A stretch of DNA of 44,410 nt from Phycisphaerales bacterium. GTDB lineage: Bacteria > Planctomycetota > Phycisphaerae > Phycisphaerales > UBA1924. A program made the translations under genes and the position numbers. The notes beneath the pieces are model-generated. The model was not told the DNA's origin and searched no databases. It saw only the letters and a list, made by a program, of their open reading frames with translations. How positions within the stretch are numbered: position 1 is the first letter of the stretch; each line of letters begins with the position of its first letter. The DNA is taken from NCBI GenBank assembly GCA_029260495.1, contig JAJDDD010000018.1:1-44410 (forward strand). The letters run 5' to 3'. Below are positions 1,108-44,022 of this stretch, piece by piece.

Positions 1108-2210
1108 TGCCTCCTGGTGGTTTCGCCGGTGTAGCGATTGAAAGCGAGAACTTCGGCGTTGCGTGTGATCCAGTCGTTCATCCGCTGGATGGTGTTGTTG
1201 GGGGTGTCGCCGAGTTCTGCATTGGTGAGGAATCGAGTATTTGGCGCATTTTTGAGCGCCTGAGATGAATCTGGGCGGAGAAGCCAGGGGAGTTCGACGC
1301 CGGTTCCGTCAGCCAGGCGCGTGAGATCGATGACGGCGAGCTGGCTGACTGTGCGCAGGAGCACCTCTGGATTGGTCGTTGGGTTCACGGGCGCCGGCGA
1401 GGGGCTGGCCTCGGGATCAAAGCGGATGGGGTCGTCGTAGACTTCCTTGTCGGGGTCGTCGAGGTCGTAGGGGAGGTCGGTGAACTCGAGGTAGAGATCC
1501 TGGTTGTTGGGGCTGGCGCCGATGGAGGCGCTGTCGACGATGGAGCCGTTTTCGTTAAAGACGATGCAGAAGGAGTTGGCGTGGCGGACGGCGTCTTCCT
1601 GAACATCGAGGCTGCCATCATCATCGCGCCAGGGATCCTGGCCTTGCCTGAGGAAGACGCGCGGGTCGTTGCGTGGGAAGAGCCAGGGGGTGAGGTCGGC
1701 GCTGCCTCCGACGCTGAACATATTGCCGGCGTACCAGGCGAAGGTGTCGGTGTCGATCATGGGAGCGTCTTCATCAGCGATGTTGAAGGAGAGGCCGAAG
1801 ACCGCAGTTCCCTTGGGAAGCTGGACAGGGGTGATGTTGTCCATAGGCCGGAGGGCCCACTGACCTGAGGTCATGGTGGCAGCGTTGGTCGAACTGAGGC
1901 GTTCTTTGCTGAGCGTGACCGCGGTGGCGTGCTGCTGGACAGTCAGGAGTGTGTAGGTGCGTTTTTCGATATCGAAGAGGAAGACAACGCCGGCGGGTTT
2001 GCCGGTTTGCATTGCTTTGGTGCGCGCGTTGCCCAGCGTACCGCGGACAGCGTTGACGGCGGCGGAGTAGTTGGCGGATTCAATAATGCGTCCGACCGCA
2101 GGAACGGTGACGATAATGAGGATGAGCATGATCGCGACGACGACCATCAGCTCGATGAGCGTGAATGCGCCGCGTGAAGCAGCCCCCCGGAATGTATGTG
2201 TGCGTTTCAT
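1104..2210 (-). CDS. prepilin-like protein (GspH-like)
   Basis: 368 residues. Basic leader, then A-FTLIELMVVVAIMLIL at about residues 15-31, the class III prepilin cleavage/methylation motif, with Ala rather than Gly before the cut and Glu at +5. The helix continues to about residue 40 and is followed by SAAVNAVRGTLGNARTKAM, a pattern common in GspH/FimT-type pseudopilins. The remaining 300 residues are a large Asp/Pro/Asn-rich periplasmic or surface domain, much bigger than a classical pseudopilin head. It overlaps both neighbours by 4 bp (ATGA), so four pilin-like genes appear to be translated as one chain. Function as a minor pilin or pseudopilin of the machine encoded upstream is inferred from the motif and the neighbours. 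Confidence 0.88.
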   Translation of the reverse strand: MKRTHTFRGAASRGAFTLIELMVVVAIMLILIIVTVPAVGRIIESANYSAAVNAVRGTLGNARTKAMQTGKPAGVVFLFDIEKRTYTLLTVQQHATAVTLSKERLSSTNAATMTSGQWALRPMDNITPVQLPKGTAVFGLSFNIADEDAPMIDTDTFAWYAGNMFSVGGSADLTPWLFPRNDPRVFLRQGQDPWRDDDGSLDVQEDAVRHANSFCIVFNENGSIVDSASIGASPNNQDLYLEFTDLPYDLDDPDKEVYDDPIRFDPEASPSPAPVNPTTNPEVLLRTVSQLAVIDLTRLADGTGVELPWLLRPDSSQALKNAPNTRFLTNAELGDTPNNTIQRMNDWITRNAEVLAFNRYTGETTRRQ

Positions 2211-20355: not shown

Positions 20356-21230
20356 GGCGACACCTCATGATCGTCTTTGGCTATCGCGATCGTCGTTTGC
20401 TCCTGAGCAGTCGGTTCGCGGTACTTGATCCACTCCAATCGCAGCCCCTTGGCTGGGAGAGTTGGGCCTGCACGCCTGCGGTCGCCGGTGGCAAGAGCTT
20501 CTGTCACATCGTTGATGGTCAGTCTGGCGCGACCGACATCGTGGAGTGTTCCAGCGATGATGCGCACCATGTTGTAGAGAAATCCTGTGCCGGAAATGTC
20601 AATCGCAATCACGCGATCATCAATCTGCTCAACATCACAGCTGAGCACTGTGCGCACTGTTGTAAGCCGGCCATGTCCAGCGTTGGCGAAGCCAGCGAAG
20701 TCGTGCTCGCCTACAAGTGCGGCGGCCGCCTCGCGCATGGGTGCGATATCCAATTCATGCCAGGTGTGATGCGACCAGCGGCGCTCCCACAGCGGGCGCT
20801 CGGGTCCGGTGTGGATCAAATAGCGATACCCCTTGCAGACACAATCGCTGATCGGATCGAACGATTCCCAGGTGGGCTCGCAGCTTCGCACAAGCACATC
20901 GGGCGCCAGTCGGGAGTTGACCGCGAGCGCCAGCCGATCATCCGTCGGGCCGCGTCGATCAATGGAACTTGAAAAGGCAGCAATCTGGGCGTTGGCGTGC
21001 ACGCCTGCGTCCGTGCGGCTCGCGCCTTGCAACACCACGGGCTCGCGGACCACATGCTGCACAGCTTGTTCGATCGTCTGCTGGACAGTGCGCAGGGGCA
21101 CGCGCCCCTTATCGGCGCTCTCGGTTTCAGCAGCGTTGGGCAGGGCGGCAGAGTTTGCGGGCACATCCTGGCGCTGCCAGCCGTGAAAGTGGGTTCCGTC
21201 ATAGGCGATGGTGAGCTTGTAGCGGGGCAT
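20352..21230 (-). CDS. truA: tRNA pseudouridine synthase A
   Basis: 292 residues from ATG 21230 (PRYKLTIAYDGTHFHGWQRQ); the longer open frame upstream runs through the structured RNA region and is not protein-like. TruA makes pseudouridine 38-40 in tRNA anticodon arms. Catalytic motif GASRTDAGVHA with Asp74; KGYRYLI and GTGFLYNMVRIIAGTL are family blocks. Oddity: about 25 extra residues (roughly 22-46, Ala/Glu/Asn rich) are inserted between WQRQ and the RTVQ..IE helix that normally follows directly. Confidence 0.94.
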   Translation of the reverse strand: MPRYKLTIAYDGTHFHGWQRQDVPANSAALPNAAETESADKGRVPLRTVQQTIEQAVQHVVREPVVLQGASRTDAGVHANAQIAAFSSSIDRRGPTDDRLALAVNSRLAPDVLVRSCEPTWESFDPISDCVCKGYRYLIHTGPERPLWERRWSHHTWHELDIAPMREAAAALVGEHDFAGFANAGHGRLTTVRTVLSCDVEQIDDRVIAIDISGTGFLYNMVRIIAGTLHDVGRARLTINDVTEALATGDRRRAGPTLPAKGLRLEWIKYREPTAQEQTTIAIAKDDHEVSP

Positions 21231-21271
21231 GAGGTTGGAACACGATAGCCGGGCTGGCAAAAATCTTCGCG

Positions 21272-21553
21272 GGCATGGAACCGGGCGGAGTGTGCTTGCG
21301 AACAGTTTGGCGACAGACACGCGAGCCGCCCGCTCGCCTCCAGTCGCCGGCTTCGCCCCGCACGGGGAACGGCAAGCAGATTCGAGGAGACAGGGCCTCA
21401 CTGTCTGGCACGGCGTTTTGCTTGGTCAAGGCCTCGCCGGGTGAAGCCGGGGGCCGTCCGAAAGTCCCTTCGGACGATCTCATACACACAGAATGTCCTT
21501 CTCAGGACTTCCGCTTAGGTCCGGTTCCTGCCGCGTGGAACCGGGCCTTTTTT
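21272..21553 (+). ncRNA. candidate structured non-coding RNA, unidentified
   Basis: A gene-free stretch with several long perfect stems readable by eye. P1: GGCA-(U)-GGAACCGG at 21272-21284 with CCGGUUCCUGCC at 21521-21532. P2: GGCGG 21284-21288 with CCGCC 21326-21330, continued by GUGU/ACAC. P3: CCGGCUUCGCCC at 21347-21358 with GGGUGAAGCCGG at 21439-21450 (12 bp, one G-U). P4 inside P3: CAAGCAGA 21373-21380 with UUUUGCUUG at 21416-21424. P4a: AGACAG 21388-21393 with CUGUCU 21401-21406. P5: CGUCCGAA/UUCGGACG near 21455-21476. P6: GUCCU/AGGAC near 21495-21508. It ends in a strong intrinsic terminator. No plus-strand gene lies upstream or downstream, so it is neither a 3' UTR nor a leader. It does not match the conserved cores of RNase P RNA, tmRNA or SRP RNA that I know. 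The 5' end is inferred from P1; no promoter identified. Confidence 0.6.
21517..21553 (+). terminator. strong intrinsic terminator of the candidate RNA
   Basis: 12-bp stem AGGTCCGGTTCC (21517-21528) with GGAACCGGGCCT (21537-21548), one G-U pair, 8-nt loop, followed by six Ts (21548-21553). It works only on the plus strand: the minus strand has no T-run after the stem. Confidence 0.88.
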
Positions 21554-21583
21554 AATGCTGGAGCGAGATTTGCGAGTGTTATT

Positions 21584-21955
21584 TCACCGGTTGACCGAGC
21601 CATCATCAGCGGGTTCTGGCGCCAGTTCGTACCCGCATTCGGGGCAGCGGCGCTGCCGGCGAAGATCAATCGGGTAGGCGCAGGACGGGCACGCGGGGGC
21701 ACTCATCGGGACGATCCATCGCGCCAGCCGTTTGTCTCCGAGCCAGCATATGAGGGCAGCGAGGAGAAAAAGTGGGGCGTTAATCATGTTCCAGTCATAG
21801 AAGGCGAAGTCGAAGAGATCGCCCGCAAAGATGCCGGTGATGAGCCACGTTGCGAGTGTGCGCACGCCGAGAAAAGCGCTGACGAGCGCAAAGATGCGCA
21901 GGATCATGATTGCGAGGTGTCGCCGGCGAAGAATGTCTTTGGCGGAGATTGGCAT
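21584..21955 (-). CDS. small membrane protein with C-terminal zinc ribbon
   Basis: 123 residues. Two hydrophobic segments (about 15-42 and 58-72: NAPLFLLAALICWLG) are followed by a C-terminal CPSC-x12-CPECG rubredoxin-like zinc ribbon. Short proteins of this design are very common in planctomycetes; none I know has an assigned role. An acidic tail (APEPADDGS) follows. It stands downstream of the 22002-23108 gene on the same strand (46-base gap). Confidence 0.85.
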   Translation of the reverse strand: MPISAKDILRRRHLAIMILRIFALVSAFLGVRTLATWLITGIFAGDLFDFAFYDWNMINAPLFLLAALICWLGDKRLARWIVPMSAPACPSCAYPIDLRRQRRCPECGYELAPEPADDGSVNR

Positions 21956-43714: not shown

Positions 43715-43896
43715 GGCAAAATCCTGGAAATTCTGTACGGCTCTTGATAGGATCGCCAAGTCAACTCGGGAGGGCTGACGGCGTCGTCCAGACGCCGACG
43801 CTTACAGCGTCGCTGAGACGAGGCAGCACACCTGGTAAACCAGCGCCAACTGGCTAAGGGCGAGGGATTCATCATCCTCGGCGTGCTGTTCTCGTA
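43715..43896 (+). other. hairpin-rich stretch upstream of domain V, probable intron remnant
   Basis: No gene. Four hairpins follow one another: GGCGTC/GACGCC (43780-43785 with 43791-43796), GACGCT/AGCGTC (43797-43802 with 43806-43811), CTGG/CCAG (43832-43835 with 43840-43843) and CGAGG/CCTCG (43861-43865 with 43876-43880). Lying directly before a group II domain V, they may be the residue of domains III-IV after loss of the reverse transcriptase gene. Confidence 0.45.
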
Positions 43897-43930
43897 GAGC
43901 CGGATGCGTGGAGACGCGCTTGTCCGGTTC
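43897..43930 (+). ncRNA. group II intron domain V (3' remnant of an intron)
   Basis: Exactly 34 nt with the canonical domain V fold: lower 9-bp stem GAGCCGGAT/GTCCGGTTC with the invariant AGC triad at 43898-43900, upper 5-bp stem GCGTG/CGCGC, GAGA (GNRA) tetraloop at 43911-43914, and the 2-nt bulge TT at 43920-43921. Domain VI should follow directly, but I could not settle its pairing. No reverse transcriptase lies upstream: only about 230 bases separate this from the XRE gene, so this is the 3' end of a truncated intron. Confidence 0.85.
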
Positions 43931-44022
43931 GACGGAGGCTCGTCAGCGTAATCCCCTCCCGGCGTGACATTCCAGTCCGCAGTGTGAGGGAGTAATCCTG
44001 GCGTTCGATCCGATGTACGTCC

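Follow-up and report, generated by a model that had tools for sequence, protein, structure and literature searches.

A candidate small RNA gene with an ECF-type promoter-like element between truA and a zinc-ribbon gene of a Phycisphaerales bacterium

Introduction

Planctomycetes carry many ECF sigma factors. The closest described systems to the locus presented here are the sigma-E-dependent small RNAs (sRNAs) MicA, RybB, and MicL of Proteobacteria (PMC8103513), FoxI and FoxJ of Fusobacterium (PMC11005410), and GsrN of Caulobacter, which depends on sigma-T/EcfG (PMC5869019). According to excerpts of these papers, the -35 recognised by Caulobacter sigma-T is GGAAC (PMC5869019), and that of E. 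coli RpoE is GGAACTT (PMC8103513). For the PVC group, one review counts, in an excerpted passage, only 8 distinct Rfam-derived sRNAs (PMC9029176).

The locus analysed here also presents a GGAAC-type box. It lies in a stretch of 44,410 nucleotides (the window) and probably corresponds to an sRNA gene on the plus strand, of about 245 nt, which extends from about 21303-21309 to 21553, is divergent from truA and ends in a terminator. The open-licence papers on small or structured RNAs of Phycisphaerae/Phycisphaerales and planctomycetes gave no description of this RNA among the matches listed.

Results and Discussion

Locus and gene content

The features of the locus, all on the plus strand, are as follows.

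21256..21265, +, A-tract GGCAAAAATC, a possible UP-like element upstream of the -35 box
21277..21282, +, -35-like box GGAACC, from its recurrence upstream of truA in relatives
21297..21302, +, -10-like box TGCGAA (consensus TGCGAAT), from its recurrence in relatives
21303..21553, +, probable small RNA, from the promoter-to-terminator interval, nhmmer homology to G009, and fold (z -3.51)
21328..21340, +, helix P1, 5' strand (GCCC-GC-UC-G-CCUC), from the hand alignment, the forced fold, and a descriptor
21384..21396, +, helix P1, 3' strand (GAGG-A-GA-CA-GGGC), from the same alignment and covariance model R2
21455..21476, +, local hairpin CGUCCGAA/UUCGGACG, from the minimum-energy fold of the window sequence alone
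21507..21516, +, ACUUCCGCUU, directly 5' of the terminator and identical in G009
21517..21553, +, intrinsic terminator with a 12-bp stem and U run, from terminator prediction and two pairs changed on both sides relative to G009

The sRNA locus is placed between truA and a zinc-ribbon gene, and no plus-strand gene follows it; the zinc-ribbon gene is convergent with the sRNA, which terminates before reaching it. The gene for an AAA_17-domain protein (AAA) is two genes from truA. The element is single-copy in its own genome (search at E 0.001). One ATG frame of some length starts inside it, with 20 aa and crossing the terminator, and the GTG/TTG frames have 25-46 aa; judged from frames alone, the sRNA is apparently non-coding. 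The original prediction of a stand-alone RNA with no adjoining plus-strand target is supported, and homologues and covariation are now added to it.

The RNA had been placed at 21272-21553, with about 280 nt. This extent needs revision, since the segment 21277-21302 looks like a promoter; the interval from 21272 to about 21302 is then probably upstream of the transcript, whose start would be nearer 21303-21309.

Promoter-like element

The whole element, GGAACC-N14-TGCGAA (21277-21302), resembles ECF sigma promoters, and it is this resemblance that suggests an ECF assignment. GGAACC...UGCGAA was initially read as belonging to the RNA; this was rejected because the spacing from GGAACC to (T)GCGAA is nearly constant. 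The spacer sequence is unrelated among loci. By eye, the sites in G070, G086, and G137 are likewise preceded by an A-tract, which some relatives lack.

The pattern GAACC-N15/16-CGAA, searched on the RNA's strand within 250 nt of truA, was present in 8 of the 14 loci with a gap between AAA and truA, the window included (G000, which is the window's genome, G009, G027, G001, G070, G086, G107, and G114), against 0 of 96 other truA loci, among which at least G005 and G022 are counted twice. It was missing from the remaining six gap loci (G016, G132, G106, G152, L170, and L189), and the reversed-order control of GAACC/CGAA matched 2/14 gap loci and 2/96 others. Before these sets were fixed, seven duplicate pairs were merged and three named loci with at most 150 bases upstream were dropped; L057, with 2 bases upstream of truA, and L111, from the same genome as L036, were left out. 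The 96 other loci comprise 17 with AAA directly before truA, 5 with AAA otherwise placed, and 74 with none in the stretch examined.

The wider pattern GGAACC-N4/32-GTGCGAA-N4/24-GAGAGA occurred in 8 of 163 family genomes, and its reversed control gave 3 matches in 2 genomes. The AAA-truA gap holds the site in four of the eight (G027, G070, G086, and G114), and in a fifth, G137, it adjoins a glycosyltransferase-like gene (named by eye); the matches in G081, G001, and G185 were taken for chance.

The genome-wide pattern is hardly above control: in 13 genomes, most of them picked because they were already of interest, GGAACC-N13/14-TGCGAA gave 21 sites against 11 for the reversed control. Seven of the 21 are at this RNA or at the G137 RNA, and four of these seven have T as the next base. 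The same holds for 10 of the 14 sites elsewhere (binomial P 3.4e-4 at 25%), which suggests that TGCGAAT is probably a -10 also used at other places. Among six genes scanned behind these 14 sites, the window's own genome contributes a subtilase and sister genomes two N-methylated pseudopilin-like proteins; the others encode a Ser/Thr kinase, an FG-GAP protein, and a product without Pfam match.

Two genomes of the same genus retain the promoter-like element ahead of a gene for a pseudopilin-like protein (N_methyl; L126 of G107 and L136 of G106).

Terminator

The strong plus-strand terminator of the original prediction was recovered at 21517-21553. Its stem keeps pairing relative to G009, with two pairs altered on both sides. 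At a limit of -12, all five gaps of one set (window, G009, G027, G016, and G001) have a hairpin followed by a U run on the strand of the RNA, with -24.4 kcal/mol in the window and -15.8 to -33.1 kcal/mol in the four others. At the stricter limit of -17, a terminator was present in 3/7 gaps (G070, G107, and G106) and was not found in those of G132, G086, G152, and G114; in G114 a U-run hairpin is visible by eye. A terminator also stands behind the promoter-like site of G139.

The closing stem proposed earlier, if it is the one formed by GGAACCGGGC and its complement (21277-21286/21519-21528, 10 pairs), takes up the -35 box and is in competition with the terminator. The sequence GGAACCGGGC occurs twice in the window, in the -35 region (21277-21286) and in the terminator 3' arm (21538-21547), which is not so in G009.

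Folding and helix P1

The fold of 21250-21560 has z -3.99, and 0/100 shuffles were as good; that of the predicted RNA (21303-21553) has z -3.51 (0/200). Without the terminator (21303-21514), z falls to -2.35 (4/200), and the minus strand gives z -2.49 (1/100). Since the terminator carries part of the z value and the minus strand is also structured, structure by itself is weak evidence. The dense structure first described is upheld against shuffles, with part of it being the terminator's share. The low z of the body and the structured opposite strand are what would be expected of GC-rich intergenic DNA with an incidental terminator and hairpins and no functional RNA. We consider this explanation highly unlikely, as it is opposed by the recurrence of the promoter, the covariation of P1, the homology with G009, and the U run of the large hairpin, which is on the plus strand.

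Helix P1 comprises an outer stem, an (A/G)C x CA internal loop, the pairs UC/GA, and an inner stem, and is located about 19-25 nt past the -10 box. In the window, the pairs are 21328-21331/21393-21396, 21334-21335/21389-21390, and 21337-21340/21384-21387. The helix is alignable in seven genera with covariation, as the letters vary and pairing is kept both in the outer stem (GCCC/GGGC, AUCC/GGGU, CCCC/GGGG, CUCC/GGAG) and in the inner stem (CCUC/GAGG, CUUC/GAAG, CGGC/GCCG, GCCC/GGGC). In a hand alignment made from folds, and for that reason biased towards pairing, 69 of 77 cells are paired across the seven genera. Among 5040 permutations of the intact 3' strands, 2 reach 69/77, the true one included, and by the double-change score the true one stands alone. 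A P1 descriptor, written after the RNAs had been seen, matched 5/12 RNAs (G000, G009, G070, G114, and G139); the expectation from shuffles, summed over the RNAs, was 0.72. Covariance model R2, built from five sequences, ranks the G114 homologue, which had been left out of it, next after its own members (E 0.023), and misses the G070 and G027 homologues.

The 12-bp pairing of the original prediction (21347-21358/21439-21450) is complementary at 12/12 positions, with one G-U, and occurs in the minimum-energy fold of the single sequence. Forcing P1 gives -113.4 kcal/mol against the minimum of -116.8 kcal/mol, a cost of 3.4 kcal/mol, and the two helices are mutually exclusive unless a pseudoknot is formed. 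In G009 the 5' arm of the 12-bp pairing is broken by an 11-column gap, and RNAduplex still finds a partner at -16.3 kcal/mol. Conservation favours P1, which is common to the relatives, and a start near 21303-21309, so that the architecture built on the 12-bp pairing is probably wrong. Covariation among relatives was found as compensatory changes in P1, a helix missed at first.

No accessible seed stands out in accessibility prediction, which covered one conserved 10-mer. This 10-mer, ACUUCCGCUU, does not have high predicted accessibility (mean unpaired 0.36 and 0.28), and it was rejected as an open seed since the prediction gave no support.

Homologues and distribution

Homologues were sought by gene order, reading the gap wherever AAA and truA are neighbours with space between them; truA (PF01416) was located in 60/61 genomes and the AAA_17-domain protein in 153/163 family genomes. 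The nearest homologue is in G009, with nhmmer E values of 7e-9 and 1e-9 in the two directions. The window and G009 are identical at 143 of 245 aligned positions, with 42 gap columns, and share identical runs of at least 7 bases: TGGAACC, CCTCCAG, CGCCGGC, GATTCGAGG, ACTTCCGCTT, and, in the terminator, GCCGCGTGG.

Promoter and P1 occur together in the window, G009, G070, G086 (with a poor inner stem), G114, and G139. In G139, which has truA on another contig, about 1.1 kb separate the promoter from the 3' end of AAA. G132 has the P1 core without a recognised promoter; G027, G001, and G107 have the promoter with a differing or unclear RNA body; and G137 has a short 5'-like RNA with promoter. A longer signature gave 47 matches in the 163 family genomes versus 52 in controls; the six genomes with promoter and P1 are among the 47, and, given the control count, the remaining matches look like background.

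The blastn matches in 60 relatives were many and weak; the best one outside the own genome (G052, E 8.1e-4) lies where a gene identified by eye as sucC-like begins, and looks like chance. With covariance model R1 (window and G009), the strong matches in the 163 family genomes were its own two members only. Its next match (G016, E 2.9e-5), which is not on the truA contig and spans only the model's variable part, was discarded; the E values for G086 and G141 were 0.38 and 2.67. With model R2, no match in 80 named truA loci had E below 0.5, and the best one in 40 AAA 3' flanks of other family members, hand-picked from the 153 genomes with AAA, had E 0.16. In these 40 flanks, the RNA's strand showed no GGAAC-type site, a single TGAAC match (L275), and a terminator in four of them; two GGAAC matches were on the opposite strand (L267 and L284). 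The promoter-anchored reading of gaps in relatives can reveal an RNA missed by blastn and by the two-sequence covariance model.

The RNA changes fast and was found in some genera of a single family only, the searches covering 163 genomes of that family and 80 named truA loci. In many other Phycisphaerae, AAA sits immediately ahead of truA and leaves no room for the RNA. Of the 25 named loci with AAA near truA, 16 have the AAA 3' end 6-76 nt ahead of truA and both genes on one strand, as does L058, which suggests that the adjacency is probably ancestral and that the RNA may have arisen in between. The close pairs (L058, L175, L185, L194, L200, L201, L204, L206, L207, L211, L213, L215-L219, and L222) have the appearance of an old gene pair; we know of no functional link between AAA and truA.

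Other observations were made at these loci. L118 of G137 holds, at about 1430-1548 (-), a candidate for a short intergenic RNA that also has this type of promoter and a strong terminator; it has a 5' hairpin GGG-AGAGAGCAAA-CCC and adjoins the glycosyltransferase-like gene. In L139 of G001, at about 1501-1625 (+), another GGAACC-N14-TGCGAAT site precedes hairpins and, about 92 nt further on, a terminator. In G070, the AAA-truA gap (L101, 397-1256) also contains two weak homologues of the zinc-ribbon protein in tandem, with 31-32% identity to that of the window. Upstream of truA, L103 (G107) and L104 (G106), from one genus, share another 3' domain, CUUCCCUUUGC with a terminator, which may represent a diverged version of the RNA.

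Comparison with house-keeping RNAs

The original prediction had recognised no RNase P, tmRNA, SRP, or 6S RNA and had suggested an Rfam search, which agrees: with Rfam 15 at gathering threshold, the window has no family at the sRNA locus. A permissive search of 21000-21800 (E 10) gave nothing credible, with a best E of 2.2, and at ten relatives' loci the best match had E 0.4 (21.7 of 70 bits), on the strand opposite to the G027 RNA. RNase P (RF00010) and tmRNA (RF00023) have no match at the locus and are above cut-off on other contigs of the genome (G000:C6:93130-93594 and G000:C3:67972-68325, respectively); ARAGORN found no tmRNA in the window, and SRP RNA has no Rfam match at the locus. The house-keeping role once considered is not supported for an RNA found in few genera of one family, in a genome with RNase P and tmRNA at other loci. 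Near the window end (43895-44014, +), a group II intron match is above the Rfam cut-off, with 48.8 bits.

6S RNA is one long hairpin with a central bubble. The RNA could be a protein-binding or structural RNA, such as a 6S-like decoy, instead of a base-pairing regulator: P1 and its internal loop resemble a binding platform, the accessibility prediction provided no open seed, and the window's genome G000 has no 6S match (RF00013) at E 10. However, 21000-21800 lacks such a match even at E 10, G009 carries both this RNA and a separate 6S-like match below cut-off (34.5 of 46.4 bits), and the RNA does not present the single long hairpin with central bubble of the 6S definition. We regard this possibility as quite unlikely.

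Proposed function

Computed support for the RNA comes from the recurring promoter-like element, the terminator, the homologues, and the covariation of P1. We propose, with moderate confidence, that an ECF-sigma-dependent, non-coding, trans-acting sRNA is the best explanation of the locus. An ECF-type alternative sigma factor would bind GGAACC-N14-TGCGAA (21277-21302), and transcription would start at the predicted 5' end, about 21303-21310, on the plus strand and away from truA. The 5' half of the transcript, of about 245 nt, would form a hairpin domain closed by P1 with its (A/G)C x CA internal loop, and the transcript would end at the intrinsic terminator (21517-21553). Since no plus-strand gene follows, action in trans is the most likely, and the RNA may pair with mRNAs or bind a protein elsewhere, forming the non-coding branch of a response, to envelope damage or stress, under ECF control. 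We infer transcription, ECF control, and action in trans.

A real terminator-ended RNA could also act in cis, with divergent transcription or a shared promoter region tuning truA or the convergent zinc-ribbon/AAA genes. The promoter-like element is 46-132 nt from the truA start in 8/14 gap loci, and the RNA converges on the neighbouring gene, as such an action would have it. Yet G139 has RNA and promoter near AAA with truA on another contig, the window RNA terminates ahead of the convergent gene, and interference needs no structured, covarying domain; we therefore hold action in cis to be unlikely.

If the trans-acting sRNA is confirmed, it would be a new RNA family in a group with few catalogued small RNAs. 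It appears to be a known kind of element without known relative by sequence. Tentatively, and with more doubt than confidence, it may be the first described ECF-sigma-controlled sRNA family of Planctomycetota, which would have arisen in the AAA/truA gap in one Phycisphaerales clade and would serve as an envelope/stress arm evolved independently of those of Proteobacteria and Fusobacteria. A recurring RNA gene with a testable promoter could help to find out whether such sigma-dependent arms have arisen repeatedly.

Relation to known systems

RNase P, tmRNA, and 6S RNA are similar to this RNA in size range and dense structure and differ in having no match at the locus. GsrN is similar in its -35 GGAAC, the circuit logic proposed here, and its sequence relatives limited to its own family, as given in the excerpted text (PMC5869019). 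The same excerpt describes a -10 of CGTT in GsrN, in contrast to TGCGAA(T) here, and a C-rich seed loop, whereas a comparable open loop was not found here. The candidate sRNA of this work is longer and more structured than MicA, RybB, MicL, FoxI, and FoxJ, belongs to another phylum, and has no sequence relation in the Rfam searches. From excerpts of their descriptions, MicA, RybB, and MicL (PMC8103513) are like it in a GGAAC-type -35 (here a -35-like box), the condition of orphan sRNA, and the circuit logic proposed here; FoxI and FoxJ (PMC11005410) are like it in the first two, and FoxJ also in the circuit logic. A further likeness to the sigma-E sRNA systems is the presence of envelope-type proteins among the genes behind similar sites here.
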